Notes under the pieces: model-generated
Told to the model about the DNA's origin: nothing
Databases searched by the model: none
The model's input: the letters and a program-made list of their open reading frames with translations, nothing else
Shown here: in pieces, positions 11,164 to 55,834 of the stretch
How positions within the stretch are numbered: the first letter of the stretch is position 1
Layout of the letters: each line of letters starts with the position of its first letter
Position numbers and translations under genes: made by a program
Source: Stropharia rugosoannulata
Taxonomy: Eukaryota; Basidiomycota; Agaricomycetes; Agaricales; Strophariaceae
Assembly (NCBI GenBank): GCA_028532985.1
Contig: JANCIK010000010.1
Span: 868,001 to 932,000 of the forward strand
DNA: 64,000 bases
Direction of reading: 5' to 3'

Positions 11164-13419
11164 ATGTTTGTGCAGATGTCCCAAAGGCTCGAGGTCGAGG
11201 GAATCCTCGACAACATTCTGCAGAAGACGAACGACATACATGAGGATATGAAAGAGGTAAAGGCGAAGGTCAACAAACTCGTGGAACTTCTACAGCCCCA
11301 CACATCCCCATACACCATTGGTCGACAAGATCTGCCACCTCTGTCCAAGATATTCTATGGTCGTGATACCGATGTCTCCAGTATTCTTGATCTTTTCTCA
11401 ACCGACGGTGGGTCTCGAGTATGTATTACTGCATCTGGTGGAATGGGTAAAACGACACTAGCACTCGCCGTAATCCACCATTCTTCCATCTGCGATATGT
11501 TTGGACGCTATCGTTTCTGGGTCCCGTGTATAAATGCAACAACAGCAGATGCCTTCCGCCGACTGCTGTACATCCAGCGTTCAATTACAGCTGAAACATT
11601 TGACAGCCTCGACATTCTCATAGACGAGCTGAAGGCTACAGAGGATAAACGGCTCATCCTTTTGGATAACTTCGAAACCCCGTGGCAGTCCAGTGGAGAA
11701 GGAAATAAAATTCATGACATCTTGATCAGGATCGCGCAAATTCCTCATGTTTCGCTTTTAGTCACGATGACCTCCGCATTTCCACCCACTCGTCACATCA
11801 ACTGGAAGCACCATCATCTCTCCCACCTAGATGCTACGGCTGCTCGTAAGGCCTTCTTAGCAGAGTGTCCAACCTCAGATCTGAGTGGCGTCGATAAACT
11901 CACGCACGTTGTTGGATACGTTCCATTGGCCATTAATCTTATGGCGCGCACTGGTCAAGAATCATATCTGCCAACAGAATCTCTTCTAAAGGAATGGAAA
12001 TCAAGTGGAACAGGCATGCTAAACGGCCTGAACGACCGTATTCAACGATCCATAGACCTGATTCGCGCAAATGACACCAGAGGCGACTCAGCACTAAAAC
12101 TCCTCGCTATCCTGTCGACGCTGCCCCTCGGGACAACAATCAAGAATTTAGAATCAGTGTGGGCCACCGTAATATCGTCATTGTCCGGTGCTCTTAGTGA
12201 TTTGCGCCGCACAGCGCTTGTAGAATGCGACGATGGAGAGTCTAGCCGTGTCTACATTATTCCGACTATTCAAGCATACATGAAGCAACATGGGCTCATA
12301 CCAAAGGATGTTCAAATACACGTACGACGTGCTTGTCAAGAATTTGTGCTCGTACACAAATTCTACACTGGTGACGAACCTGATTACAGAACAAGAGTGA
12401 CATCGCTTTCCGAGGAACACAACAACATAGAGGTTCTTTTGTTGCAGGATGATGTCGAAGACGACCAGGAACGTCTGCGGCGCGCCGAGGCACTCGTAGC
12501 GTTTTGTTTCTATTTACGCGACGTCAAACCGAGTATCACAATTGCTCAGATGGTGCTAGAAGCTGCGGAAGGCACAAAGAGCCGTCGCTGCATAGCTGAA
12601 GCACACGAAGTTCTTGCGGATATGTACGACATAGCTGATCAGTTCGACACAAGCTATCATCATTATGAGAAAGCCCATGAGCACTTCATTGATATAGAAG
12701 ACTTTGCGCGGGCAGGCGAGTGCACCTATAGCATGATGACTTGCTCCATGATTTCAGGCGGCTCTTTAGCACCAGGACTGACAGTCAAATCACTCGCTGA
12801 TCAAGCACAGGCCGAGCTATCCCATGACCAGGGTGATGAATACAGTATGGCTCGTGCCATGCTAGTACGTGCAGAATATTTTTGGTATACCAGAAAATGG
12901 GACGACGCTCGAACAACATTAACCAAAGTATTGGATGTACTCAAGATGTTGGGGTGTCCGACCAACACTGTTCGTTGTCTCCGGCTATTGGCTAGGACAG
13001 AGGCAATAAACGGATACTACAAACTCGCACTTGACCTATGTTGCGAAGCACTGGAAATTACAGAACGGCATGGTCTCAGCGCTGCATTGACTGGCTCAAT
13101 TTTACACCTACAGTCATCGTACTTGATAGTCCTGGAGCGCTATGACGAGGCTGAACATGCTGTTCAAAAGTCTCTCAAATTTGCACAAATTCAAGGCTCA
13201 TTCCTGAGCATTGCACATGTTCTGGACAAGCTTGCCTATATCTCTACCAAACAAGGGGATATAGACCAAGCAATTCAATTCTACACCGAGGCGAAGGTAC
13301 ATTTCAGCAAGGTGCAATCACAATCAAATGGAGAAGAGGAAAAGCAGAGATGTGAATGGAATGTTCAAATGCTAGCTAGTGGTTACCTTAATGATATTGA
13401 AGAGCCCATCCGCTATTAG
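11164..13419 (+). CDS. NLR-type NB-ARC protein with TPR repeats
   Basis: A 751-residue single-exon protein of the STAND class, expected to act as an ATP-switched sensor in non-self recognition or programmed cell death. Residues 8-45 look like a short coiled coil. The NB-ARC part follows: FYGRD (about 64-68), Walker A SGGMGKTT (91-98), Walker B RLILLDNF (163-170), a sensor-like LLVTMTS (198-204) and a GLPL-like VGYVPLAIN (250-258). From about 430 to the end there are helical tetratricopeptide-like repeats (YHHYEKAHEHF, ALDLCCEALEI, AIQFYTEAKVHF). No N-terminal effector domain is visible, so either the protein is a short form or an upstream exon is missing; none is obvious before ATG 11164. A related 3' fragment lies inverted at 26673-27340. 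Substrate or ligand cannot be told. Confidence 0.9.
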   Translation: MFVQMSQRLEVEGILDNILQKTNDIHEDMKEVKAKVNKLVELLQPHTSPYTIGRQDLPPLSKIFYGRDTDVSSILDLFSTDGGSRVCITASGGMGKTTLALAVIHHSSICDMFGRYRFWVPCINATTADAFRRLLYIQRSITAETFDSLDILIDELKATEDKRLILLDNFETPWQSSGEGNKIHDILIRIAQIPHVSLLVTMTSAFPPTRHINWKHHHLSHLDATAARKAFLAECPTSDLSGVDKLTHVVGYVPLAINLMARTGQESYLPTESLLKEWKSSGTGMLNGLNDRIQRSIDLIRANDTRGDSALKLLAILSTLPLGTTIKNLESVWATVISSLSGALSDLRRTALVECDDGESSRVYIIPTIQAYMKQHGLIPKDVQIHVRRACQEFVLVHKFYTGDEPDYRTRVTSLSEEHNNIEVLLLQDDVEDDQERLRRAEALVAFCFYLRDVKPSITIAQMVLEAAEGTKSRRCIAEAHEVLADMYDIADQFDTSYHHYEKAHEHFIDIEDFARAGECTYSMMTCSMISGGSLAPGLTVKSLADQAQAELSHDQGDEYSMARAMLVRAEYFWYTRKWDDARTTLTKVLDVLKMLGCPTNTVRCLRLLARTEAINGYYKLALDLCCEALEITERHGLSAALTGSILHLQSSYLIVLERYDEAEHAVQKSLKFAQIQGSFLSIAHVLDKLAYISTKQGDIDQAIQFYTEAKVHFSKVQSQSNGEEEKQRCEWNVQMLASGYLNDIEEPIRY

Positions 13420-16678: not shown

Positions 16679-17740
16679 GGAGAGAAGGGCGCGTATGCCG
16701 GGCCGCGCTTAATTATGTCATCAGTTGGCACCATTGAGAATTCCAAACAACGCGACGCGTGTTCTTGGCGTTCCGAGCTGGTCACTGCGTCCACGTGTCT
16801 CTATGCCCGTTCTCCTCGCTTCTTGCTTGAAACGTACCATTGTCTATGGTACACGTCCTATGTGTCGATGTTCCCTGAAGACGTGTCCCTTTATACCATA
16901 ATGCATGTTCCCCAGCACGCGGCCCTGCTCCAGAGTCAGAGTTAAATATAGAAATGGACCCGCGACTACTGTATGCTGCTTCGGAGTTGCTATCCTACCT
17001 CTCGCATATGTCCGTCGTCCACGTCGCAGGCCTCTCCCTACATCACTCTTGTCCCATAACCCTATCCCTCAGGCCTCAGTTCTAACTTTTCTCCTGTACG
17101 TGCTGACGGCTGCGCCTGCCGCTTGCTGCGAAAATATCTAGTCTCTCCCCACCTCACCATACTCACATGGCCCATCCTGCCAAGAGCAAGTCCCGTATCT
17201 CGACATGTCCCATCTGCTTGGCCGTTGCCCCGAGTCTCGCCGCCGCGTCGCGCCCGCCCCATGCTTTAGGACCCGCCCCGCCTGGTCACAGCAATTCCTT
17301 TCCTGTCTGTAGCCTTCCCCGCGTTCCAGTCTTTTTTAATGCCCAAATGGTGCGATGATGGCCCCACCGTCTCCCGCGCTGAGCATAAGCGTCTTTCCAA
17401 GGTCTTTCCTAGTTCTCTCTGTTGTCACAGACCGCACCTGTGTCCGTTCTCGCCCCGGACTCACGGTTACTTGATCTGTATTTAGTGTGGCTCTAAAGAG
17501 GTCAGAATCTCATATTCAAATCGCATTTTGTTCGAGGAAGCAATACACACTATTACTACTACCAGATGGTTCCAACTTCGAGACTCGGTAGAGAGCTTTT
17601 CTTTCCCATTCTTGACCTTTTAAATACTAATACAAAAGTATCTCGACTACGTCGGTGCATGGTTCTTGCGTAACAGACACAGACTCGAAGCCACACAGGA
17701 ATTATACGGAAGACTGCTACACACTTCCCTTGTCACTTCT
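16679..17740. other. Gene-poor stretch, nothing convincing
   Basis: Short frames (for example 17167-17358, Pro/Ala-rich) show no family signature, no splice partners and overlapping frames on the other strand. I see no gene here. Confidence 0.4.
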
Positions 17741-19740
17741 GTGGGACATTCAGGGCTTTGCCACCTCGAGCGCATGCTCTGGCTATTCTCGAACCGACCA
17801 TTTTCTCTTTAATTCATGCGTGTCTGTACCTCGTAGATATAATGTGATCTTGCTGTGATCTGCTAATTCCCCACTTTAAAGCTCTTCTAAACCTGTAGAA
17901 AACACCAGCTCGCAATAGCCTTCACTGACCATATTCCGGCCTTTGCACTGCCACACACCGACATAGACTGACTTTGGTTTATCCGTACACTGACCTTTAC
18001 ACTGCTCTTTAATGACCTATCAGTTAGGACGAAGCAAGGTCGGACATGGTCCAACAGTCAACCACCTGCGGGAGCAGAGGACGTGAATGAGCCCATTAAC
18101 TGAGCTTGTCGCTGCATCACCATGGGAGGGAGATGGACGCGAGCTGCAGATGGCCACGGGCGCAACGTCGGGTGGGAGAGCACCGGGGGGACATGCTTAC
18201 GGGGACTGTGAGGGTCGATATGGTGGTCAGCCAAGTTGGCGGGGGCAACAGTGTCGGCGTAGGCGATGACGGTGTGAGTATATGCTCGGGCCTTTAGGCA
18301 TGCACATCTCAGGGAACACGTTTTTGAATGCGGATGCGGGCCTGTCACTATTGAAAAGCAGGAGGAGCGCATACTTACTGAGCCAAAAGACCCAAAGGAA
18401 CGGAGATTACAGCTTCAATCTCAAGTCAGCAGCGCCCGCTGTACAGCCTGTACACTCCATAGTCGTGTACCTTCAGGGGGACGAGAGTAGGACGACAGTA
18501 TGGCTGCAAGGATGCGAGGGCATGTTCACGCTTTTCTCAGAGCTTGGGAACACGTAGGAAGATGACAAGAGGAGAAGCGGGTACGGATTCAGAGAAGATG
18601 TAAACGCATGTGTGCGGACTAAGGCCAACAGTATGTGCCGTACATCCGACAAAGTCGCGTTCTGCAACGGAACTCAGGAGGAGACGACCACGCGACGTGC
18701 AGACGACGATGGGATGCCTAGGTCGATGGGAAGCAGGGACGAGGCGATCAGAGCTAACCTCGCGGTGGACGTCCCGAGAGTCGTGCGTGCGCGGGCCAGT
18801 GTTCAGAATCGGGGCGTACTTCAGGACGTACGTGATGAGGAATGTGGCTGTTGCACCGGCAGGGCGTATGGGCGCGAGAGCGAACTCATATGCAGGGACA
18901 AGGCAAAAGCGAACGCAGGATCCGACTCGAGGCTGGGATTTACGCAGATGCAGATGCTGAAGCTTGACCAGAGCGAGGCACGGGTATGGATTCAGAAACG
19001 ACACCAAAAGAATGATTCAAAAACGCGGGCCAAGATCAGCAGGATGCGACACACAAGAGTCACGTTTCTGCATGGGGCATTGGGGAGATGGCCACGAGAC
19101 CACGACGTGCATTTAGTTTGGGGGACCAAATGTGCCCTGAGGATGCGTAGGCAAACGGAACGTAGGGACGAGGACGGGCGGGATGCAGATAGGCCCGTTG
19201 TACGTCCTCGGGCTTGAGCTTGAGAGCGTGGCGTACTTCAGCACGTGCGTGGTTGTGGCGAGGCGTCTGCTCGCAAATGCGAAGACGAGCTTGTACCCAG
19301 GGACCGAGGCAAAAGAGAATGCAGAGTATGTCTATGAGCTGGGAGTATAGCAAAGCGGACAGAGTGATGATGCATGTCACGGAGAGGATGGATATGAGGT
19401 CTGGCATTTGGGTAGTGGGTATATGCGTGCTTACCATGGCATCCTGCCCATGCCTACTAACTAATTGTATGCGTATTCCGCGTTCAATACATGTCTGCGT
19501 AGGAATATATCGGCAGTAGCAAAATTGGTAGTGGAAGGAGTAGAGAGAGATTCGGCCGCCGGCGACTATTAGGCCATGCCGCGCTTATGTCATTGCTTGA
19601 CACGGTCGGGCATTCCAAACAACGCCCCACCTTATCCACATACGGTGCACCAAATAATTAAAGAAAAAATGAGTTATCTTGTGGGATTCCAGAACTACAG
19701 CATTGCGTGAGTGCGTGATAAATGCGTGAGATCTTGAGAT
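17741..19740 (+). repeat. Direct repeat A, left copy (about 2.0 kb)
   Basis: Nearly identical to 24611-26655 in the same orientation, from GACATTCAGGGCTTTGCC through to the block ending near GATAAATGCGTGA. Differences are scattered substitutions and small indels. The sequence is GC-rich in the middle. Open frames in it are disrupted differently in the two copies, so they are not read as genes. The left arm of a large inverted repeat follows immediately. Confidence 0.85.
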
Positions 19741-21590
19741 TGACTCAATGGCTCACTCACGCACGCATCACGGCTTTTTCGCTTTGCCGAGCCATGTTAT
19801 ATATTTAGCTGTGAGATCAATGTGGGATACAAATAGGGAGACCAAGACGATTGGTATGGCTTTTGATTGCTCATTCGGAGCAAGAAAGAATACCAGAATA
19901 AATTACACCTTAAAATGCTTACTCGCTCCTGCAAATCACTCACAAGAACGACAACGACGATTGAAATATAGATTTGTTTTACAAAATAGCGTGCCAGTAT
20001 GTACCGCTTCAGCACGAGACCGTGACAAGCCTACTACGGGTATACTAGTTGAGAGAAACATCTTTGCACGCTCAGCTCAAATACACAACTCGGCGATACA
20101 CAGACTATCAATCGATGTTAATAGGCTGGCCTGGGACGGCAAGGACAACTTCAAGGGGCGTTCCTCCGGTCGTGTCACTCGCAATGAAAGCAGCCTGCCA
20201 CTTGCCCCTTCGCCACACGTCAGCGTTGTCTGCGGGGACCGCGAAGAAGGAACTATCGCCGCCATCGTTGTTTTTGGTGATACGGACATTGACAACCGCA
20301 CCGGAGTTGTTTGTAACGGTAACTGGGTCCATGGTTTATATGTCTGAAGGTCAAGCGAACATTACAATCTGTATACATCGTCAACAGGTAGTAGTGGTAG
20401 TACTCACTGTGATACAAGTCAATTTATCGGGTGGGGTGCACTGTGTTATGCGTGAGATGGCGTATTTTATCAGAGCAGGAGTGAAGATCGCTTACAGTTG
20501 TTCGTCGTCTGCAACACTGGATGAGGTCCTTGATGATTTTCAAGACATTTTATACATCGCAGCACACGTAAAGTTTATTATTATCTTTGCTGTTTTACGT
20601 GTTGTACCGAATAGTGGTACCTACCCGTTTGCTTCTTGGATGAATGTAGAGCCATGCCATAGAGTCACATTCTATGACTTGCCTGATGTATTCCTCATCA
20701 GGTCACATCGTTCACTTGCACCAGTAATGCGGCGGAAAGCCAGAATTTCAATGTTACTCTTCTGTCGAAGTTAGAGATCTGTAAAGGAACAAAGTATCCC
20801 CGTGTTAATCTATTGCCACAAGCTCAGGCAAGTACAAATCCTATTTGAGCAACCGTCAACGTACGTAGATGGCTAGACTACTCATTCCAGTCTGAGTTGG
20901 ACATCACCTACGTAAAAGGTTATGAAGAGAAGGGGTCGAAATGATTAACAAAACGGTTAGCTCCGGAGTCAAACAGTATCAGCACATTGCACATTGTATT
21001 CTGATCAATTCATGTATTTTTCACGGAAGCTGTTATGCGCCGAGTACTAACTGAACTGAATTGCTTGAATGAATGGAAGTATCACACTCTCTGGTCTTGT
21101 TCAATAGAACAAATAGTTCCATCGATTTTCAAATATAATTGGCGCTGCTTCTTGTTATCTGAGCATCTTCTACAGTGTTGAACTTCACGGAATTTAATAT
21201 CAAGGACCATATGATTTACTAAGACAGGGCTTTTCAACCGATTCTTTTTGTATCGATGCGAGTAAGTCCGCCGCAATACACTTTTTCTGGCAAGTGGTGA
21301 AGTGGAATATTCCAGTCTTTCATATCATGATTACGATACCCATCGCAGGATGTAGTAAGCGAACACTTTCATCGTACCAAACATTTGTTCATAAGGCAGG
21401 GGGTGCGGTCATATACTCCAAGGATCTGATTAGCATTGTGGGAAATTCACAGTTCAAAATCACTCAATAAGCTAGGTTTATATGAATGGCTTGTTAAAAC
21501 TATGTACAGTTGTCGAGCAGGGCTTGGTCTATTTGTTCGTTGCGTAGTAGACTGGGTACATGAAGACTGAAAATGTTCCACGGCGAGCGT
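19741..21590 (+). repeat. Large inverted repeat, left arm
   Basis: Reverse-complement match to about 22737-24575. The outer end starts at ACTCAATGGCTCACTCACG; the inner end fades near GGCGAGCG about 21585. The 250 bases beside the 74-codon gene (20333 onward) differ at only two positions between arms; the other side differs by a few percent and one roughly 25-base indel. The arm contains the minus-strand 74-codon gene. Confidence 0.85.
20108..20332 (-). CDS. 74-aa small protein, fast-evolving, copy 1
   Basis: A single-exon frame starting MDPVTVTNNSG and ending QPINID. Alternating polar/hydrophobic residues (VTVTNNSG, VNVRITK, LEVVLAVP) predict a compact beta-sandwich. There is no signal peptide, membrane segment or cysteine. 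The pattern NNSG...V.V...W.R..W resembles small basidiomycete proteins of unknown function; I cannot name a family. It matches copy 2 (23948-24172) at 54 of 74 residues with no length difference. Of 24 nucleotide differences by my count, 23 change an amino acid and only one (CCA/CCT) is silent, while the flanking arm is almost unchanged. That preservation of frame with replaced residues argues that this is a real gene under diversifying selection. Confidence 0.75.
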   Translation of the reverse strand: MDPVTVTNNSGAVVNVRITKNNDGGDSSFFAVPADNADVWRRGKWQAAFIASDTTGGTPLEVVLAVPGQPINID

Positions 21591-22736
21591 CCGCGGCTCT
21601 GTCTACTACAAAGTTGGCGTGACAGCGGGATGCGACCAGAGGACGCCGGCTAGACGGTGATGCACGGATATGGCAAATCATGCATCAGGCTACGCGAGCT
21701 TAAGCTTTGGGATCACAATATGCGTGAGAAATGATTTCTGCGACTGATGTAAAGAGTATAACCCCTCGAGAGAGCACAGTCAGATAGCAGACACGAGAAG
21801 ATATGGCATATTTGTACTACTCAAAATGAACGGGATGAGAGGAAAGAAGGTTCTGCGTACCAAGAGCGTTAACAATGGGCAGGACCGGAGACACTGTAGC
21901 AGCCACTACATCGCTAGCACCACGTATGAGCACTGTTTTCTATATATGGAGACCCCACCAGACATGGTACGCAAGAACAGTGGAAGCGAAGCTAGCAGTG
22001 AAAATCAACCGTGCAGTTCTGGAACGCAGACGCGGCTGTCAAATCAAATTACCAAGCATTCATTAAAGGGCCGTCATACACTTGCTGAAAATCCTAGCCA
22101 GGTGTGTGAATGGGAAGTGGGACGAAGTCATTGGTCGACTTGAACTGCGATGGAGGAATCGGCCTAGTATGGAATGGCAGCGTTATCCTGCCCCATGCCC
22201 ATTCTCAACCGGAGATTGCGACGAAATAGAAGTGTTTTTGTACAGCTGAGTCTGCTTGTGTATTGTCATGAGCGGAGATATGTGAGCATAGTCATTCTCA
22301 GAGAAACATAGAGAGAAGAAATTATGCGCCGCACAGAAAATGCGTGCCAATAATGACGCACACGACAAGGCAAGAACAATGGGATCCCAAGGAGCAGGGG
22401 CTAAGCAGGGTGTCCATGATACAGCGGTACATTGGCCCGACATAAGCGCACGCAAGACGACTTAGAGGCGCTGCATCCCTCTTCTTTCCCGCATACTGTA
22501 CTATTTTAAGTGGTTACTCCAGCCGGTGGGCATGGGACGTGTTGTTATGTGCGTCGGAAACGTGTACCAGGCAGGGGGATGCACAGACTTGACAACTAGA
22601 GAAAGCGGGTACCAATTCAGAAACGATGTAAAACAACACGGGCAAGGCCAGCGGTATGTGGCGTACGCTCCGGAGTTTCATCTCTGCAGGGGAGCCGGGG
22701 AAGATGGCCGCACGAGCAACTGTGCCGAGGGGACGC
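21591..22736. other. Spacer (core) of the inverted repeat, no gene seen
   Basis: About 1.1 kb between the arms. The right part (22545-22740) again belongs to the GC-rich repeat family (GCGGGTACC-ATTCAGAAACGATGTAAA). The frame 21826-22143 has no family signature. No gene is supported. Confidence 0.5.
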
Positions 22737-24575
22737 GCTCGCCCTGGAACATTTTCAGTCTTCATGTACCCAGTCTACTACGCAACGAACAAATAGACCA
22801 AGCCCTGCTCGACAACTGTACATGGTTTTAACAAGTCATTCATATAAACCTAGCTTATTGAGTGATTTTGAACTGTGAATTTCCCACAATGCTAATCAGA
22901 TCCTTGGAGTATATGACCGCACCCCCTGCCTTATGAACAAATGTTTGGTACGATGAAAGTGTTCGCTTACTACATCCTGCGATGGGTATCGTAATCATGA
23001 TATGAAAGACTGGAATATTCCACTTCACCACTTGCCAGAAAAAGTGTATTGCGGCGGGACTTACTCGCAGCGATACAAAAAGAAACAGTTGAACAATCTT
23101 GTCTTGATATTAAATTCGGTGAAGTTCAACACCCGGGTAGAAGATGCTCAGATGACAAGAAGCAGCGCCACTTGCATTTGAAAAATCGATGGAACTATTT
23201 GTTCTATTGAACATGACCAGAGAATGTGATAATTCAAGCAATTCAGTCCACTTAGTACTCGGCACATAACAGCTTCCATGAAAAATACATGAATTGATCA
23301 GAATACAATATGTAATGTGCCGATACTGTTTAACTTCGGAGCTAACCGTTTTTTTAATCATGTCGACCTTTTCTCTTCATGACATTTTACGTAGGTGATG
23401 TCCAAGTCAGATCGGGATGAGTAGTCCAGTCATCTACATACGTTGACGGTTGCTCAAATAGGATTTGTACTTGTCTGAGCTTGTGGCAATAGATTAACAC
23501 TAGGATACTTTGTTCCTTTACAGATCTCTAACTTCGACAGAAGGGTAACATTAAAATTCTGGGTTTCCGCCGCATTACTGGTGCAAGTGAATGATGTGAC
23601 CTGATGAGGAATACATCAGGCAAGGCATAGAATGTGACTCTATGGCATGGGTCTACATGCATGTACTATTCGGTTCAAAACGTCAAACAGCAAAGATAAT
23701 AATAAACTTTACGTGTGCTGCTATGTATAAAATGTCTTGAAAATCATCAAGGACCTCATCCAGTGTTGCAGACGACGAACAACTGTAAGCGATCTTCACT
23801 CCTGCTCTGATAAAATACGCCATCTCACGCATAACACAGTGCATCCCACCCGATAAATTGACTTGTATCACAGTGAGTACTACCACTACTACCTGTTGAC
23901 GATGTATACAGATTGTAATGTTCGCTTGACCTTCAGACATATAAACCATGGCCCCAATTACCGTTACAAACAACTCCGGTGCGGATGTCAATGTCCGTAT
24001 CACCAAAAAGAACGATGTCGGCGATAGTTCCTTCTTCACGGTCCCCGCAGGCGCCACTGAGGTGTGGCAAAGGAACAAGTGGCAGGCTGCTTTCATTGCG
24101 AGGAACCCGAACGGAGGAGCGCTCCTTGAAGTTGTCCTTGCCGTCCCAGACCAGCCAATTAACATCATTTGATAGTCAGTGTATCTCCGAGTTGTGTATT
24201 TGAGCTGAGCGTGCAAAGATTTTTCTCTCAACTAGTATACCCGTAGTAGGCTTGTCACGGTCTCGTGCTGAAGCGGTACATACTGGCACGCTATTTTGTA
24301 AAACAAATCTATATCTCAATCGTCGTTGTCGTTCTTGTGAGTGATTTGCAGGAGTGAGTAAGCATTTTAAGGTGTAATTGATTCTGGGAATTTGATGGGT
24401 ATGGCGTTCACTTACTTGCTCCGATTGAGCAATCAAAAGCATACAAATCGTCTTGGTCTCTCTATTTGTATCCCAGATTGATCTCACTGCTAAATATATA
24501 ACATGGCTCGGCAAAGCGAAAAAGCCGTGATGCGTGCGTGAGTGAGCCATTGAGTATGGCATGTACCCATACACC
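22737..24575 (-). repeat. Large inverted repeat, right arm
   Basis: Reverse complement of 19741-21590. It begins inside the block reading GGAACATTTTCAGTCTTCATG and ends at GTGAGCCATTGAGTA. It carries the plus-strand copy of the 74-codon gene. Direct repeat A (right copy) follows after about 35 bases. Confidence 0.85.
23948..24172 (+). CDS. 74-aa small protein, fast-evolving, copy 2
   Basis: A single exon starting MAPITVTNNSG and ending QPINII, followed by TGA. Predicted all-beta, soluble and cysteine-free. The invariant blocks shared with copy 1 are TVTNNSGA, VNVRITK, GDSSFF, KWQAAFIA and LEVVLAVP; replacements cluster between these blocks, which in a beta-sandwich would be the loops. The function is unknown. 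Its position in a repeat zone bracketed by an NLR gene and an NLR fragment makes a recognition or effector role conceivable, but that is inference only. Confidence 0.75.
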   Translation: MAPITVTNNSGADVNVRITKKNDVGDSSFFTVPAGATEVWQRNKWQAAFIARNPNGGALLEVVLAVPDQPINII

Positions 24576-24610: not shown

Positions 24611-26655
24611 TTGTGGGATATTCAAGGCTTTGCCACCTCGAGCACATGCTCTGGCTATTCTCGAACCGACCATTTTCTCTTTAATTCATGCGTGTCTGTA
24701 CTTCGTAGATACAATGTGATCTTGTTGTGATCTGCTAATTCCCCACTTTAAAGCTCTTCTAAACCTGTAGAATACACCAGCTCGCAATAGCCTTCACTGA
24801 CCATATTCCGACCTTTGCACTGCCACACATTGACATAGACTGACTTTGGTTTATCCGTACACTAACCTTTACACTGCTCTTTAATGACCTATCAGTTAGG
24901 ACGAAGCAAGGTCGGACATGGTCCAACAGTCAACCACCTGCGGGAGCAGAGGACGTGAATGAGCCCATTAACTGAGCTTGTCGCTGCATCACCATGGGAG
25001 GGAGATGGACGCGAGCTGCAGATGGCCACGGGCGCAACGTCGGGTGGGAGAGCACCGGGGGGACATGCTTACGGGGACTGTGAGGGTCGATATGGTGGTC
25101 AGCCAAGTTGGCGGGGCCAACAGTGTCGGCGTAGGCGAGGACGGTGTGAGTATATGGTCGGGCCTTTAGGCATGTACACCCCAGGGAACACGTTTTTAAT
25201 GCGGATGCGGGCCTTTGACTGTTGAAAAGCAGGAGGAGCGCGTACAGAGCCAAAAGACCCAAAAGAACGGAGGTTCCAGCTTCAAGCTCAAGTCAGCAGC
25301 GCCCGCTGTACAGCCTGTATACTCCATAGTCGTGTACCTTCAGGGGGACGACAGTAGGACGAGAGTATGGCTGCGAGGATGCGAGGGCATGTTCACGCTT
25401 TTCTCAGAGCTTGGGAACACGTAGGAGGATGACAACAGGAGAAGCGGGTACGGATTCAGAAAAGATGTAAACGCATGCATGCGGAATAAGGCCAGCAGTA
25501 TGTGCCGTACATCCGACAAAGTCGCGTCCTGCAACGGGACTCAGGAGGAGACGGCCACGCGACGTGCAGACGCCGATGGGATGCCTAGGTCGATGAGAGC
25601 TAACCTCGCGGTGGACGTCCCGAGAGTCGTGCGTGCGCGGGCCAGTGTTCAGAATTGGAGCGTACTTCAGGACGTACGTGATGAGGAATGTGGCTGTGGT
25701 AGGACGTATGGACGCGAGAGCGAACTCAAATGCAGGGACAAGGCAAAAGCGAACGCAGGATCCGACTCGGGGCGGGGATTGACGCAGATGCAGATGCGGA
25801 AACTTGACTAGAGCGAGGCACGGGTATAGATTCAGAAACGACACCAAAAGAATGATTCAAAAACGCGGGCCAAGATCAGCAGTATGCGACACACAAGAGT
25901 CACGTTTCTGCATGGGGCATTGGGGAGATGGCCACGAGACCACGACGTGCATTTAGTTTGGGGGACCAAATGTGCCCTGAGGATGCGTAGGCAAACGGAA
26001 CATAGGGACGAGGACGGGCGGGATGCAGATAGGCCCGTTGTACGTCCTCGGGCTTGAGCTTGAGAGCGTACTTCAGCACGTGCGTGGTTGTGGCGGGGAG
26101 TCTGCTCGCAAAGGCGAAGACGAGCTTGTACCCAGGGACTGGGGCAAAAGAGAATGCAGGGTATGTCTATGAGCTGGGAGTATAGCAAAGCGGACAGCGT
26201 GATGATGCATGTCACGGCGAGGATGGATATGAGGTCTGGCATTTGGGTAGTGGGTATATGCGTGCTTACCGTGACATCCTGCCCGTGCCTACTAATGAAT
26301 GGTATGCGTATTCCACGTTCAACACATGTCTGCGTAGGAATACATCGGTAGTAGCAAAATTGGTAGTGGAAGGGAGCAAGTAGCGAGAGACTCGGCGAGT
26401 AGGGCGCATACACTATGCCGTGCCGCGCTTATGTCATTGCTTGACACGGTCGGGCATTCCAAACAACGCGTGCGCGTTTCCTTGGCGTTCACGGTTCTTG
26501 CTCGGACTGACGGTACTCTCGCCCCAGAATGAATCCCGACTATTATTTTGATACTCCTTATCCAAATACTGTGCACCAAATAATTAATGAAAAAATGAGT
26601 TATCTTGTGGGATACCAGAACTAAAGCATTGTGTGATAAATGCGTGAAATTGACA
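24611..26655 (+). repeat. Direct repeat A, right copy (about 2.0 kb)
   Basis: Same orientation as 17741-19740 and very similar over its whole length, with small indels (for example a gap near 25600 relative to 18730). Together with the inverted repeat it gives the order A, arm, core, reversed arm, A. The NLR fragment on the minus strand begins directly after it. Confidence 0.85.
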
Positions 26656-26672
26656 TAAACAAAAATGAATCG

Positions 26673-27340
26673 CTAATAGAGCATGGGCTCTTCAATATCT
26701 TCCAGATGACCACTGGCTAGCACTTGGATATTCTTTTCACATTTCAGCTTGGGGCCCTCTCCATTGGTTTTCGATTGTACCTTTCCAAAGTGCACCTGTG
26801 CCTCGGTGTACAGCTGGATAGCTTGGTATGAATCCCCTTGTTTGGTAGAGATGTAAGCAAGCTGATCCAGAACCTGTGTGATATCCAAGAATGAGCCCTG
26901 AGTTCGTGCCAAGTTGAGGGACATTTGAAGAGCATGTTTTGCCTCGTCATAGCGCTCCAGGACTATGAAGTAAGACGACTGTAAGCTGAAAATTGAGCAA
27001 ATAAATCCAGTGCCGAGACCATGCTCTTCTGCAATTTTCAGTGCTTCGCAACTTAGATCAAGTGCAAGTTCGTAGTTTCCACTTCTGGCTTCTATCCTAG
27101 ACAATACACGGAGGCATGTAACAGCACTGGCTGGACTCTTCAACCTTTTGAAAATGTTCAATGCATTGGTTAACGTTGTTCGAGCGTCATCGTTTTCCTG
27201 AATATACCAAAGATAGTATCCATGTACTAGGATGCCACGAGCCATATTATATTCATCTCCTTTGTCATGGGATAGCTCGGCCTGTGCCCGATCAACGAGT
27301 GATTTGAGTGTCAGTTCTGGTGCCCCAGAGTCAGGTAGTG
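26673..27340 (-). pseudogene. 3' fragment of an NLR (TPR part)
   Basis: The minus strand encodes about 220 residues homologous to the C-terminal TPR part of the NLR at 11164-13419: KSLVDRAQAELSHD, DDARTTLTNALNIF, ALDLSCEALKI, LQSSYFIVLERYDEA, LAYISTKQGD and the end EEPMLY. Homology fades near 27340, and no NB-ARC domain follows on the upstream side. The frame itself is still open, so truncation (probably by rearrangement) came before decay. It lies in opposite orientation to the full gene. Confidence 0.85.
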
Positions 27341-27764: not shown

Positions 27765-28976
27765 TGAGAGGTCTACTGCGTAGCTAGACTCGAAATCGCG
27801 AAACACAACACACACACACACCCAGCGGAGCAAGATCCTATCCTTTAGATCGAGCGAACGCCCTCAACTAAACGGCTAGTATAATCTTTGCTCTGCTCTG
27901 GTTCCCGGTCTGGGCGTGCGATGCGCGCACCTTGTGTCCTCTAGTCTTTGTAATAGCAAGTAGTGCCTGCAAGTTCGTTTGTAAGGAGGGGTTTAATTCT
28001 AGTAAATCTCGGATAGAGCCCGGTTGCTAGTGGCGTGCGCTAGGCAAAATGATAAATGAAATAAGTTGTTTTAGCGAACGGCTTCGCTGCACGCACTTCC
28101 GGGTCCGGTGACCTCGTACGATGCGCGGACTCTCCAAAGTCCAACAATCCAAGACTCTCCAAAGTCTTTCACCCGGTGGTGCAGTCTCAGTCTAAACACT
28201 ACAGTGCGAGTTTCCATACACGGTTGTACTGACTCCTCACTGAGCTCTCCAATTGACCCGGTGGCCAGAAGCTATCCAAAACTCCTATGATTCACAAAAC
28301 ACTTCACAGTTAAGACCCTAACAAAAGCTAAACACAGCCCGCTGACGGCCTGGGACAGAACCCAGCACACAGATCTAGTGGGTAGACAATTGCTTAATTA
28401 CTATAGACAAGGATACAGGTTTATATGCGATGCATGCATGTGTACTAATAATAAGGTAAAGTAAATACTAGCAACGCACGGCCAAAGGCCCGCGCATCGC
28501 ATCCGGGCTTCCCTTCGAGTGTCCTGATCCCTTGGCATTCGCTGCGCGCATGTTGTTTATTCCCTCGGGCTTTTGCACGTCTTTTGATGCGCGCCGCCAC
28601 GGTCACATGATGTGTGGACTTAGACAAATTTTGCCTTGCGATGTGCGCATAGGAGATACGCGCACAGCCCTTCACACCGCCCTTGGTATCCGCTCAGCTG
28701 TACTCACACCGCTCTTTGCTGGTGCTTAACCGTTCTACGCTTTCCTGATCGCTCGCACAGATGGCCAAACTATGCACTCTAGACTGTGCAGCTCGCTGAC
28801 CAATCTTTCTCGCGATACGGTGCGTGCAGGCGCTTGTAGTCATGATGCTCGCGCGCTGATAGCTATAGACTATGAGGCAGGCTCAACTCTAGTCTCTCTG
28901 TGTTTTCCCGCGCGCAGCTATCCCACTAACGGACCTTCTGACTGTTTACACCCGTAGCCAAAAAGCAGCCCTGTCA
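27765..28976 (-). repeat. 3' LTR
   Basis: 1,212 bp, bounded by TG/CA. It matches 42553-43764 base for base as far as I could compare. Short frames inside it occur identically in both copies and are not genes. It contains two TGCGCGCA palindromes (27922, 28543). Confidence 0.95.
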
Positions 28977-42552: not shown

Positions 42553-43764
42553 TGAGAGGTCTACTGCGTAGCTAGACTCGAAATCGCGAAACACAACACA
42601 CACACACACCCAGCGGAGCAAGATCCTATCCTTTAGATCGAGCGAACGCCCTCAACTAAACGGCTAGTATAATCTTTGCTCTGCTCTGGTTCCCGGTCTG
42701 GGCGTGCGATGCGCGCACCTTGTGTCCTCTAGTCTTTGTAATAGCAAGTAGTGCCTGCAAGTTCGTTTGTAAGGAGGGGTTTAATTCTAGTAAATCTCGG
42801 ATAGAGCCCGGTTGCTAGTGGCGTGCGCTAGGCAAAATGATAAATGAAATAAGTTGTTTTAGCGAACGGCTTCGCTGCACGCACTTCCGGGTCCGGTGAC
42901 CTCGTACGATGCGCGGACTCTCCAAAGTCCAACAATCCAAGACTCTCCAAAGTCTTTCACCCGGTGGTGCAGTCTCAGTCTAAACACTACAGTGCGAGTT
43001 TCCATACACGGTTGTACTGACTCCTCACTGAGCTCTCCAATTGACCCGGTGGCCAGAAGCTATCCAAAACTCCTATGATTCACAAAACACTTCACAGTTA
43101 AGACCCTAACAAAAGCTAAACACAGCCCGCTGACGGCCTGGGACAGAACCCAGCACACAGATCTAGTGGGTAGACAATTGCTTAATTACTATAGACAAGG
43201 ATACAGGTTTATATGCGATGCATGCATGTGTACTAATAATAAGGTAAAGTAAATACTAGCAACGCACGGCCAAAGGCCCGCGCATCGCATCCGGGCTTCC
43301 CTTCGAGTGTCCTGATCCCTTGGCATTCGCTGCGCGCATGTTGTTTATTCCCTCGGGCTTTTGCACGTCTTTTGATGCGCGCCGCCACGGTCACATGATG
43401 TGTGGACTTAGACAAATTTTGCCTTGCGATGTGCGCATAGGAGATACGCGCACAGCCCTTCACACCGCCCTTGGTATCCGCTCAGCTGTACTCACACCGC
43501 TCTTTGCTGGTGCTTAACCGTTCTACGCTTTCCTGATCGCTCGCACAGATGGCCAAACTATGCACTCTAGACTGTGCAGCTCGCTGACCAATCTTTCTCG
43601 CGATACGGTGCGTGCAGGCGCTTGTAGTCATGATGCTCGCGCGCTGATAGCTATAGACTATGAGGCAGGCTCAACTCTAGTCTCTCTGTGTTTTCCCGCG
43701 CGCAGCTATCCCACTAACGGACCTTCTGACTGTTTACACCCGTAGCCAAAAAGCAGCCCTGTCA
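42553..43764 (-). repeat. 5' LTR
   Basis: 1,212 bp, apparently identical to 27765-28976. Reading on the minus strand it starts TGACAG at 43764 and ends CTCTCA at 42553. It should hold the promoter of the element. Confidence 0.95.
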
Positions 43765-50074: not shown

Positions 50075-52032
50075 CTAATCAGAAAAGTCAGAACTGGAGC
50101 TTGAGTTGGGGCTCCAGGAATTGGGAATAGAAGTGCATACCGAGCTGATGTCATCCATATTTTTGTCATTGTGCACATCTAGTGTCTATTTATTAGTATG
50201 TAATATATAAGTAATAAATGTGAGACTTGCCCAGTGGTGCATCATCGTCATTGTCCGATCCGGCGGAAACATTCAGAGGGGCGTCATCCTCATCCATAGG
50301 ATCATCCTCAGTAGGCTGAGAGCCAATGGGGACATCGAGGGGGGCCTCTTCATCTTCATCAGGACCCTCCCTCTCCTGTGTGCCCTCTGGTGCTTCGAGG
50401 GGGGCATCATCATCATCTTGTTGATGGCCGGCGGATGTATGGGGAGGCTTGTCATCCATTTGCTGATCATCAGTAACCTGAGAGCCTACTGGGACATCGA
50501 GGGGGGCCTCTTCATCTTCATTGGCAGGCCCGGGAACATTTAAGGGTCCCTCACTTTCCTGTGTGCCCTCTGGCGCATCGAGGGGGGCATCATCATCGTT
50601 TTCCATTTCGCCGGCGGATGTATGGGGTGGCTGCTCATCCATTGGCAGATCGTCAGTATCCCGAGAGCCTACTGTGACATCGAGGGGGGCTTCCTCTTCT
50701 TCATCGGCACCATCACGTGTAACGCTGAGTCTGTCCTCTGTCTGCTGTGTACCCTCTGGTGCATCCAAGGGGGCATTGTCTTCGCTGTCTTCTTCGCTGG
50801 CGGGTGCGTCATCCGGCGCCTCATTGTCTGATGAGATATATATGGGTGCATCCCTGTTGCAGGGCACTGAATAGTCGACCAGAGGCAGGGATACTTCCGG
50901 GGATGGGCTCCAACGACGGTAGCGTGCAGCATACATTGCCTGCATTTCGGCTTCAGACGCATGCCCTGGTTTTGTGACTCTGGGAATGGGTCGTGCGATG
51001 CCGCCGGATGGGCCGGCGGAACGATTCCGTTTTGGGTGGAAGGGAGAGGGAGATCGACTTATCATACCCGTTTGATTATCTGATTTGCTCGGAGACGGCG
51101 AATGTTTGATATGTTGGTGTCTTTAAAGCGAGGGAGATGGGATGACATAAGGATCTGACAGTGAATTTACATACCTTATGAGTAGACACCCTGGGAGAAT
51201 GTCGTGGATGTTCAATTCCGGCGGCGGAATATCCGCAGGCTCCCCTCTCATTTCCCACAAAACTTCTCTTGGCTCGCTTCTCTGAACACATGGCTCCCTA
51301 TCGAATTCTTCTTCCATCATGTTATGGTAGAACTTCAGCCACCAAATTTTCTTCTGGTAGGCCTGGCATGAGAGGCACATTGTAACTGGCGGAGCTAATT
51401 CCGGCGGACGTTCTGTGAGCCCAGGAATGTACTCGTATGGGTAGTCGCAACCGGCTAGCAAGTCAGGGATTTTCTTTGTATCCTTGTACATGTCCTGCAT
51501 GACCTCCAAGAATTTGCAGAAATGATGGTGAAGGTCGTCCCAAGTGACATCCTGGTCATAAAGCTCATTGTCATCCATCAGCCACCATGTGGGCAGATTA
51601 TCTGTGACAGCAATGTGAATAATGTCTTCCCCTTGCATGAATTCGGGATCGTAGGCTGGTGGAAGTGGGAATTCGGTCGGCCGGCAGGTGACGCCATATC
51701 CGGCGGACACGATTTGATCGAGAAGGTACGGTTTGCACATCTGATAACCCTTCAAATTACAAGCGCCAATGTGCATGAGAGTCAATTCCTGAAAAGATGG
51801 TTTTTTCAGTTAATAATATACTGATATCATAAATATTCCCTACAATTTCTCGCAGGAATAGCCTTGAATACATGTGTGTTGGTGAAATGTCCTGGGGGGT
51901 AGGATGGCAGCGGAGCACGCAGCGGATTCGTACCATGCAAATATACAAAAAGATGTTGCATTGAATCTTGTCAATGAGAGAGTCTTCGGTTGTCCCGGCC
52001 GTGGAATTCTCAATGGAGATGGAGGAGGACAT
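50075..52032 (-). CDS. KDZ-element accessory protein with acidic tandem repeats
   Basis: Starts MSSSISIENSTAGTTEDS. The N-terminal half is globular (RCHPTPQDISPTHMYSRLF, IGACNLKGYQMCKPYL) with a CLSCQAYQKKIWWLKFYH segment that may be a small zinc or membrane-facing motif. The C-terminal half is built of about four copies of a roughly 55-residue acidic unit (DDAPLDAPEGTQ, EEAPLDVPVGSQ, HTSAG). The HTSAG and NVSAG steps are where the DNA motif CCGGCGGA falls in the coding sequence. Introns are short; the last one uses a GC donor (CTGG|GCAAGT). Not a known family. The acidic repeats suggest a histone- or DNA-mimic or an interaction platform; that is inference. Confidence 0.65.
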
Positions 52033-52133: not shown

Positions 52134-55100
52134 TCAGGCCACATGATACCAGTGGCTTATATAATGTACATATGCCTTACTAAATCTAGCATCCGCTACC
52201 CTACCTAACTCATTCCATAAGTTGATCTGTGCCTGCGCGTAAGCCTGGAAACCTAGTGGGTGAGCATTAAATTGGCCGGCGGCGTCATTTGATGGGTTTT
52301 GAATGGCGGTCACTGCATCTGCCCAGACGTTCCGCCGGTCTTTCCACATATTTGCCATATGCACATAGAACCGGACTGTCCAGTCCATTTCATGCTGACA
52401 TAGCACAACCTCTTCCTCCCAGCACATCTTCTGTGCTCTTGCTCATAGCCAATGAATTCGATAGACTACAATTGTATTTAGTCACAGCTTGATGAATATC
52501 AATAAAACTTACAATCATTGATTCTTTCGCAATTGAGATTTCCTGCGACCGGCGGATTACCATCCGGCAGATCCATATTATGTTCTATTCTCCATATCCA
52601 AGACATTTGAGAACTGCTACCCCCTCTTGCATTCGGTTCAGTTATTGATGCACTAGTATTTGTATCAGCTTTTGACATGATGGGGAATTGTTGATCAATG
52701 GCAGCCCTATCAGTGTCATCCCTTGCAAGGCATAGCATTGACAATCGATTGTGATTATATTTCCACCGGTGTGTACTGGTTGCCTGTGCCAACACGACCA
52801 CACGATCCTGAGCTCTGGTGTGATGTGCACCATCTGTCCTCCTGACGTCAAATGCATATAGCCAAGATTTCTGAATAATTTCCCCACGAATGGATTCTAA
52901 TAAATCATCAGCATGAGCTTTTCTGATCTTTAGCTCTGTTTTTTGCAACCGGCAGAGAACAGATTTATCCTGGGCAGATGCACCGGCGGATGTCAAAATC
53001 TCTTTGGTGATTTCTGAAGGGAATGCCATCAGCTGTCTTTCAGGGTCAGCATAACTGACTTCTTCATTAGCCACCTCTGCTTCTTCATCTGTTTGTGCAC
53101 CATCCAGGATAGGGACATCATGTTCATCATTGAAAGAATTCACAATATCAATGCCCATGATGTCGACAGCATTGCGAGCAAATTTGTCCAGCTGCTTGCG
53201 AAGTGTGTGCCGGCGGCGTACAAGATCCTGACGCTGAGCCACAGTAGGATCTCGAGGCATACGGCGGACGTGCGACCGCAATTCATTTCTAAATAATGAA
53301 TACATTGTCTGGTAATAATGATTGATACTCACTGCAATTGCTCAGCTTGAATACCTTGTGACAGCCATACAGCTCGACCGCCTGTCTCCCCATGTCGAAT
53401 TTCATTCTCTGAAAGCTGCACCTCAATTTCTCGCATGGTGGCAGCCTTCTGCACAGCCAGTCGATAAATGTCCATTGCTTCTGGGTCCTCATCTTGCCGG
53501 CATTCAGCAGCCTCGATCTGTTCCAACCATTCTGGGAGCTTATCCGCCGGCATACTTACAGTAATATCGTTATAGTACACAATGGAATCAATTTCATGAT
53601 TCACTGCTCGAATATATTTCTTGATGATTGTAGATGGCATATTGACCGTCTTCTTCCAATTAGAATCACCCATGTGATCATCGAGTACTTCAGCTCTATG
53701 GCCGGCAGTCGCAGTCCGAACACTGCGAGATGTCTTGTTTAGCAGGCTCCATAGTGTTTCCAGAATCTCTCCGTCTACCATGCCAACACCTGGGATATAG
53801 GTAGATGCCCATCTATATAGACATTCTGTCTTGTGGCCATGTACATGCCAGAGACCGACTGCACGTATGCATCGAAGTCTTTGTGGCCAAGTGAGACCCT
53901 TCATTAGTCGAAATCGCCTAGTCATATTCTTGTAGAACTGACACATAATGTCATAAATGAACATGACAGTCTCGATGCCGCCGGTGTTGGTATGCTTGAG
54001 TGCTTCAGAAATACTGTAGTCCATGCACATTTGACGTTCGCCCAATTCAAAGTCAACGAGACTGCCTGGACAGAAGCAGCCGTGTCTTGCACATGCCTGT
54101 ACCCCAATCCCTCTGACCCGGCAGCCAGAAACAACCTTTTCACTGTCAAGCTGCGCACGATGAGAATGGCAAGTCGGCGGCTCTTTGAAATTCCTGGAAT
54201 ATTTTTTTGCATCCTTCAAATGCTCCTGGTATGGACCGGCAGCTGTCATGAATGCCTGGCCGGCTGTCAAATCAATATCGTCATGGGCATTCTTTTGATT
54301 TAAATGGTCAGCCTTGAAGTTCCCATCAGCACAGTACTTGTGAATAAAAAGAAACTTCTTGTCATTCTCTTTCCAGTCTTCAGGGAGGTTGATTTCTGGT
54401 TGAGGACAAGCAGGGCAAAATAGAGCCAGTATATCGCCGTACATCGATGGTGTCATTTTAATCCCTCCGGCAGTGTTACCGGCAGCGTCTTCTGGTGTCC
54501 CATCTTCACTGTCTGATTCACACTGATCTGCAACTGGTGGAGGCATAATATCCTCATTTGGTATTTCATTATCAGCAAGAATCTGTACTTCCAGGATAGC
54601 TGGTGGGTCAGGGTTTGGGCGCCATAGTCCATGAGCTCGGCCATGCATGGTCCACATCTTTATGTTGCGAAATTGTCTACTCAGCCGGCGGAGCTCACGA
54701 TATCGATCCAATACTGCCTGTGGGAAGGCAGGGCATGTCAACCGGCGGAGCTTCGTGTAATACTGATATGCAGATGTCTTGCACTCCAGGTTAGACAGCC
54801 TGAAGTCTCTAAGAACAGCAAATGTGAAGACAGTCTTGACCACATCGAAAGAGGTTGGGAATAGTGCCAGCTGCATGTATTGATTATCCTCCGGCGGCTG
54901 ATTGTTGCAGTGACATTTGACAGCCGGCAGGTGATGGATTCCATTTACTTCGACAATTGTAACAAATGGATTACCATGGGTATCATTTTGGGCTGGCCTC
55001 GGTAAGACTCGAGGGTAAGTAACATCAATATCAAAGACAATTGTGTCTTCATCAATATATTCATCGGCAGCTTCCTCAGCTTCAGGTTGCAGACCAGCAT

Positions 55101-55834
55101 TGTAAGCCCGGCAGATATCACCTTCATGTTCATCGCCATACTGCGCCTCTTGCATTTCTTGTATATCATTGTAGTCGACCATTGTATTAGGACATCTATT
55201 TCCTTGATGGCCAAGATGAAGCTTTACACCGACTTGCCATAGGGCCGCCGGTGTGAAAGCACTACCATCCCAACGAAGAATACAATGAAATGGCATGAAA
55301 TCATGAATCCGCCGGCAACATGTCGTGCATAAGAGTCGTCCTCCAAAGCATGCCTTACACTTCCATTTGGCAGCAGGTGCATTGCAAGCATTGCATGTAT
55401 CGATCCCTCTGGCAGGTGCATGAGATGCCATAACAATCTTCAAGTGGGTATCCCTTCTGACAAGCCATTCTCTAAGAAAATTGTTTTGCGACTGCATGAT
55501 TTAATATATGCAGTGTGCAATTCATGTGGGTGATACAACATACCTTGCCTCTGTATACTGGTAGATCCAAGTTTTGTAGGTTTTCGATAACCTGATCCTC
55601 AGTTATATCTCCAGCATAGTCAAGACGGTCAGGTACTTCCTGTGGTTCAAAGCCTGGTGGAACGTCTGGAATAGCAGGAATAGCAGGAATAGTCGGTGCT
55701 ACATTCTCTGCAACAGGTTCACCACCACGTTTACGCTTCTTTGTGATGACCTTTCCTCTATGGTCCCGCTCTTCTATCTGGATGCCACCAGCTTGATTGG
55801 GAACATTGTGCTGGGTTATACAGACACGGCACAT
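52134..55834 (-). CDS. KDZ transposase with CxC2 cysteine cluster
   Basis: Exons run about 55834-55548, 55494-53333, 53290-52518 and 52430-52134. A basic N-terminal part (TKKRKRGGEP) leads into the CxC2 cluster: CNACNAP...CKAC...LLCTTCC...H...C, then LGH...CP. The RNase H-fold KDZ transposase domain follows, with candidate catalytic residues D in CADGNFKADH, D in IYDIMCQFYKN and E in DGEILETLWS, plus the domain hallmark LWHVHGHKTECLYRW. The C-terminal part is helical and arginine-rich and ends YISHWYHVA. No frameshift or early stop was seen, so the copy may be active. It mobilises the element by cut-and-paste. Confidence 0.9.

Follow-up and report, generated by a model that had tools for sequence, protein, structure and literature searches.

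A palindrome-borne family of small proteins in the mushroom Stropharia rugosoannulata: probable diversifying selection and a possible role in recognition

The window analyzed here, a 64,000-nucleotide stretch of the Stropharia rugosoannulata genome (GCA_028532985.1, contig JANCIK010000010.1, hereafter C10; C10:868001-932000 of a 48-Mb, 20-contig genome), contains a palindrome whose two arms each carry a short open reading frame (ORF), copy A and copy B (g06 and g07 in our numbering of the family; Table 1). These ORFs belong to a family of palindrome-borne genes whose coding sequences, judging from codon models, have very probably diverged under diversifying selection, with a gene-wide ratio of nonsynonymous to synonymous substitution rates (dN/dS) of about 3. 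Gene-wide values of this size are rare. To our knowledge, few molecular determinants of somatic incompatibility have been identified in mushroom-forming fungi; a small, hypervariable protein encoded in the same region as an expansion of NOD-like receptors (NLRs) is a concrete candidate for such a determinant, and the protein is small enough for complete folding, mutation and assay.

Selection on the coding sequence

The initial annotation of the window had singled out the two copies as a pair in which almost all coding differences change amino acids, and a direct recount bears out their coordinates, frames and counts. Each copy consists of 74 codons and a stop; 24 of the 222 bases differ, with no indel, and 23 of these differences are nonsynonymous, altering 20 residues, the sole silent codon difference being at codon 70 (CCT/CCA). 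The similarity described for the flanks was likewise recovered: upstream, 2 of 250 bases differ (at -104 and -226), with divergence climbing past -260, and downstream 4 of 150. The binomial probability of at most one silent change among 24 is 0.012, or 0.006 at a transition/transversion ratio of 2. Taken singly the pair is moderately convincing, and it is the family data that make a strong case for selection.

A protein search of the genome recovered at least 14 members, 12 of them on C10 (689-1120 kb), one on C1 and one on C12, the last being the weakest match (E=0.022). Each of the 14 has an ATG and an uninterrupted single-exon ORF, the start context is CCATGG in 10, and cysteine is absent from 13. 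Ten of the 12 members on C10 are arranged as five divergent pairs (minus/plus), at about 723/728, 842/857, 888/891 (the pair in the window), 1008/1013 and 1078/1083 kb, and both arm and loop sequence were found at all five.

By the Nei-Gojobori method, dN/dS lies between 1.6 and 7.9 in 40 of the 45 pairs of these ten palindrome members; three of the other five pairs are identical and g02/g03 differ by a single replacement with zero silent changes. Comparisons of the ten with the paralogs g01, g12 and g13 (30 pairs) give 0.39-0.77, and in those with g14 silent sites are saturated. Codon models were fitted to the eight distinct palindrome members over 71 codons (g10 and g11, identical to g09, being dropped) with our own implementation rather than PAML, using a single starting point per model. 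The one-ratio model yields a gene-wide dN/dS of 3.12 (twice the log-likelihood difference 13.1, p=3e-4 against 1). Site models place 51% of sites at dN/dS 5.7 (M1a/M2a, p=2e-5) or 50% at 5.8 (M8a/M8, p=3e-6), and the gene-wide estimate stays at 3.1-3.7 with coding, upstream or downstream trees, which represent three topologies, and likewise when codon frequencies are set equal. By likelihood, then, the family has a dN/dS above 1 that is robust to topology, and the possibility that the ratio would not differ from 1 did not hold in the eight-member clade. In a two-ratio branch model with three outgroups the ratio is 2.93 inside the palindrome clade and 0.27 elsewhere, the stem of the clade being counted elsewhere (two ratios versus one, p=1e-10; foreground versus 1, p=6e-4); by these estimates the branches outside the clade evolve under purifying selection. 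Not favoring selection is the remaining pair, g06/g08, with a dN/dS of 0.80, and the two subclades taken separately also count against it, clade A (2.75, p=0.05) being borderline and clade B (2.10, p=0.10) not significant.

Comparison with the flanks points the same way as the codon models. Over the 28 pairs of the eight members, the mean proportion of nonsynonymous differences (pN) is 0.151 and that of synonymous differences (pS) 0.050, with flank divergence of 0.057 (upstream 1-300), 0.065 (upstream 301-900) and 0.094 (downstream 1-350). Replacement divergence thus exceeds that of the fastest flank, and silent divergence is somewhat below that of the downstream flank. In three hand-picked comparisons replacements exceed flank changes with uncorrected Fisher p values of 9e-6, 5e-5 and 5e-11.

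A replacement excess might be artefactual if the ORFs were decaying under relaxed constraint, or if the true gene lay in another frame or on the other strand. Two antisense frames are indeed open in all eight members, the in-register one with a pN/pS of 0.53, and an open frame alone is weak evidence of function here, a test of stop-codon avoidance being uninformative (probability of no stops 0.17 under random change). However, variable sites at codon positions 1, 2 and 3 number 25, 28 and 13 of 72 each, a pattern not expected from purifying selection in another reading frame; since the second position is a replacement site in both in-register frames, and yet is the most variable, antisense constraint is not the cause. 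The dN/dS is significantly above 1 rather than near it, the promoter is conserved, the start context is widely shared, and the frame, whose loss from homologs would have told against a gene, is kept in homologs from many fungi, including other phyla. We rejected relaxed constraint on the dN/dS and a gene in another or antisense frame on a six-frame test, and consider this whole explanation most unlikely. The diversifying selection proposed in the initial annotation is upheld by codon models, flank comparison, branch test and the retained frame together.

Exchange between the palindrome arms

The alternative offered with that proposal was that recombination had brought diverged alleles into homogenized arms, with no selection on the protein. 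Conversion-like tracts are present: g10 and g11 are identical from about -500 to +300, and g02 and g03 show one difference over about -1100 to +700. The g04/g05 pair, at 842/857 kb, is near-identical upstream, diverging by 0.4% at -301 to -900 and 2.1% at -1 to -300, but from the ORF onward, downstream sequence included, about 10% of bases differ. A test modeled on the pairwise homoplasy index (PHI) gave p=0.001 for the whole region and for its upstream part, the smallest value attainable with 1000 shuffles. Significant recombination in the flanks and the jump in divergence of the 842/857 pair would both suit an import of alleles. Against it, the same test inside the ORF gave no recombination signal (p=0.46, with 37 informative sites and hence limited power), and silent differences number at most 4 in any pair of the ten palindrome members, as against about 17-30 in comparisons with the outgroup paralogs g01, g12 and g13. 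Because imported alleles would carry silent changes too, their scarcity speaks against import; in the coding region this alternative lacks support, and we regard it as very improbable. On these sequence comparisons the arms exchange, but import does not account for the differences between the coding sequences. In this family nature thus sets gene conversion in palindromes against diversifying selection; in one pair a conversion-like tract ends near the start codon.

The promoters are conserved in turn. The TATAAAATG box and the leader with its intron-like stretch are common to the palindrome pairs and g12, and slightly altered in g01; a promoter stretch of about 172 bases is 85% identical to that of g12, though coding silent divergence from g12 is 0.48-0.62. 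Such conservation supports functional transcription units, and the GTAAGC...ACACAG stretch is a putative leader intron.

The paired layout also recalls selfish or toxin-antidote genes, perhaps akin to fungal meiotic drivers, in which the two diverged copies of each palindrome would have different roles and turn over fast. Multiple, fast-evolving, divergently paired copies that exchange with one another are in keeping with this; yet two of the five pairs encode identical proteins (g10/g11) or proteins one residue apart (g02/g03), a poor fit to fixed poison and antidote roles, and that the other branches of the family evolve under purifying selection also tells against it. We consider such genes improbable.

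The 842/857 palindrome has about 10.9 kb of extra sequence at an arm/loop junction (C10:843646-854564, outside the window); despite this, identity between its arms is 99-100% over the stretch that runs from about -1100 to -200 relative to the start codon.

Homologs, predicted fold and possible role

An earlier protein search with one member found no homolog, and a profile of 12 members found two among the 7984 candidates sharing most words that were scored. A profile built from older members, six sequences of which two were those earlier matches, retrieved 33 proteins at E<=0.1 among 246 candidates, with E-values from 5.6e-35 to 4.6e-14; in all but one of the 33 the alignment spans 96% or more of the query. 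In an alignment of 40 sequences (8 of the 14 S. rugosoannulata members and 32 of the 33 matches, P0033 being left out), N8, W40, R42, Q46, G57 and L64 are invariant. This significant full-length profile similarity places the small protein in an uncharacterized fungal family of 75-80 residues, of the Lentinula/Hypoxylon/Xylogone type. Lentinula edodes F5879DRAFT_954845 (P0005) and Hypoxylon K449DRAFT_388597 (P0010), both of 80 residues and with the conserved N, W, R, Q, G and L, are each 36% identical to the window protein (P0002-P0032 span 28-42%); neither is known to be paired in palindromes or to be under such selection. One bacterial record, P0001 from Nocardia sp. CDC153 (on an 892711-base contig), is 76% identical to the fungal paralog g01, through either horizontal transfer or a chimeric assembly.

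The predicted fold is a compact beta-sandwich (predicted local distance difference test score, pLDDT, 92). Pfam contained no family scoring meaningfully with the small protein, nor did PADLOC (scanned with copy B, P0001 and P0002), and sequence searches of the PDB gave no meaningful match. Solved structures listed among the closest systems are the VHL beta domain, thaumatin-like proteins, MoHrip2, plant SPH and CBM25, the matches not being confident. Literature searches on positively selected or palindromic small basidiomycete families, on NLR and incompatibility genes and on VHL-like small fungal proteins returned no paper in which we recognized this family among the matches listed. The initial annotation had placed the replacements between beta-strand-like blocks, and this survives as a tendency: residues variable among the eight members are 14 of 35 in strands and 28 of 39 in loops (p=0.009), but neither the focal-pair replacements (6 of 35 strand and 14 of 39 loop residues, p=0.11) nor the sites with a posterior above 0.9 (5 of 33 and 9 of 38, p=0.55) bear it out.

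Diversifying selection on a compact soluble protein suggests a surface read by something that itself changes. Fungal NLRs respond mostly to small endogenous proteins, among them HET-C and SEC-9 (PMC10197012), the HET-C coding region is more variable than its flanks, with a replacement excess (PMC1805685), and the TPR, ANK and WD repeats of Podospora NLRs are under diversifying selection (PMC4986451). On these grounds we tentatively favor, as a possibility that falls a little short of an even chance, a HET-C-like recognition role with a clustered TPR-NLR as reader. Each of the five palindromic cassettes carries two divergently transcribed copies of the gene for a cytosolic-looking, predicted beta-sandwich protein of about 74 residues. 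The sequences show promoters and arms homogenized by gene conversion or ectopic exchange, with the coding sequences staying different in several pairs; on the favored reading each palindrome would so maintain two variants in cis. The protein would serve in recognition through its variable surface, to which a partner binds, the likeliest being the TPR domain of a clustered NLR, and particular combinations of small protein and NLR would trigger cell death or immunity, as when HET-C is sensed by HET-E/HET-D.

Shared with HET-C and HET-E/HET-D of Podospora anserina (PMC1805685, PMC10197012) are a small endogenous protein, coding variability above that of the flanks, a replacement excess and a repeat-domain NLR family in the genome. 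However, HET-C is a 208-residue glycolipid transfer protein, unlike the multi-copy, palindrome-borne, predicted beta-sandwich described here; HET-E/HET-D are NACHT-WD rather than TPR NLRs; and the variation here lies between paralogs in one genome, whereas the HET-C comparison is between alleles. Podospora het-B likewise has a small protein of 115-132 residues beside a cell-death-type gene, with highly divergent variants (PMC10890737); it comprises Bh, a HET-domain/lectin-fold protein, adjoining the small PII-like Bp, and these are other protein families, Bh not being a NACHT-TPR NLR. As far as our searches show, the protein family is widespread in fungi and without a Pfam model, and the logic is of a known kind, the genomic arrangement being new.

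The protein of the NLR-type gene in the window has TPR_12 and TPR_2 above Pfam cut-offs, with NACHT (19.7 bits) and NB-ARC (18.8 bits) both below them. At E<=1e-10 the genome contains 23 matches to it, of which 18 are on C10 (17 at 682-1136 kb and one at 1436 kb), four on C9 represent one degraded copy and one on C12 has 25% identity. Small genes and one NACHT-TPR NLR clade thus share the same 450 kb or so of C10, and the nearest NLR match to each of the 12 small genes on C10 is 0.4-33.6 kb away. The degraded copy, near a contig end (C9:3325460-3332082), lies about 4 kb from a palindrome-arm remnant, the only arm homology outside C10 among the matches listed; no family ORF was found in the stretch with arm homology, and the two are perhaps a fossil of a linked arrangement. 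The small genes and the NLRs thus occupy one plastic region, and they were probably linked ancestrally.

Several observations weigh against the clustered NLRs as readers. With the NLR matches in the C10 interval merged into 16 places (that at 1436 kb left out), 8 of the 12 small genes have such a place within 10 kb, not above the expectation from circular shifts (p=0.15), and 5 have one within 5 kb (p=0.40 after random shifts). The nearby NLR to which the initial annotation pointed belongs to a clade expanded in the same region, but closeness of small genes to NLRs within that region is not above chance. Among five NLR copies compared (10 pairs), pS in the NACHT domain is 0.32-0.53 in nine pairs and 0.04 in one, against 0-0.08 for the cassettes, so that the NLRs are mostly much older duplicates and the two did not spread as one recent unit; pN/pS in the TPRs of the same pairs is 0.40-1.04, never clearly above 1. 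No NLR was recognized by eye among ORFs of at least 110 residues around the C1 and C12 members (20 kb and 10 kb). One ORF near the C12 member resembles a WD-repeat protein.

The main rival is a cytosolic lectin- or toxin-like defense protein directed at outside antagonists (nematodes, insects, mites, bacteria or viruses), whose diversification follows its target; small genes and NLRs would both have expanded in a plastic region, their neighborhood being incidental. Besides the chance-level closeness to NLRs, the small size, near-absence of cysteine, multiple copies and strong diversifying selection agree with it, as do the patchy spread over Basidiomycota, Ascomycota and one Nocardia and the presence, at weak scores, of a carbohydrate-binding module and toxin domains in the fold list. 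However, no known lectin or toxin in the libraries searched matched meaningfully in sequence or confidently in structure, and no conserved binding site was recognized. We hold this role to be a serious possibility, if a rather unlikely one.

That these are recognition or conflict genes, as the initial annotation had suggested, is plausible and unproven. A bolder form of the HET-C-like reading, which we think doubtful, is that the palindromic cassettes, beside an expanded TPR-NLR cluster and each with two hypervariable mini-beta-sandwich ligands read by linked NLRs, would supply each haplotype with a repertoire of self-markers, conversion keeping promoters alike and selection keeping the coding halves different; this would be a previously undescribed system in a mushroom-type fungus.

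Features of the window

The features around the two copies are collected in Table 1. The 1.9-kb outer repeat has four near-full-length copies on C10, counting both that flank this palindrome.

Table 1. Small genes, palindrome, repeats and NLR-related features, in window coordinates
Feature	Position	Strand	Remarks
Copy A (g06)	20108..20332	minus	Single-exon 74-residue ORF, without cysteine; start context AACCATGG
Copy B (g07)	23948..24172	plus	Single-exon 74-residue ORF; protein 73% identical to copy A
Promoter/leader of copy A	20441..20554	minus	Conserved like that of copy B
Promoter/5' leader of copy B	23726..23839	plus	Conserved; TATAAAATG box and intron-like GTAAGC...ACACAG stretch (putative intron)
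Left palindrome arm	19743..21589	.	Contains copy A and promoter region; 91% identical to right arm
Loop between arms	21590..22735	.	87-97% identical to the loops of the other four palindromes; without a recognized coding gene
Right palindrome arm	22736..24555	.	Contains copy B and promoter region; arm found again at all five gene pairs
Outer repeat, left of palindrome	17740..19625	plus	1.9 kb; direct orientation to the right one, 93% identity
Outer repeat, right of palindrome	24612..26469	plus	1.9 kb
NLR-type gene	11164..13419	plus	751 residues; C-terminal TPRs and an NTPase resembling NACHT/NB-ARC that scores below Pfam cut-offs
TPR piece	26673..27245	minus	Kin to the C-terminus of the NLR at 11164..13419, 64% protein identity

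Further along the window, two 1212-bp repeats (27765-28976 and 42553-43764) are 100% identical and bracket minus-strand ORFs that by eye we take to be Gypsy-type gag/pol, presumably making up a very recent insertion of a long terminal repeat retrotransposon. A minus-strand ORF at 50193-51065 has a tandem acidic repeat unit (DDAPLDxPxGTQ-like), and the adjoining minus-strand ORFs of 277 and 722 residues at 52499-55497 resemble a transposase of the KDZ/CxC type.

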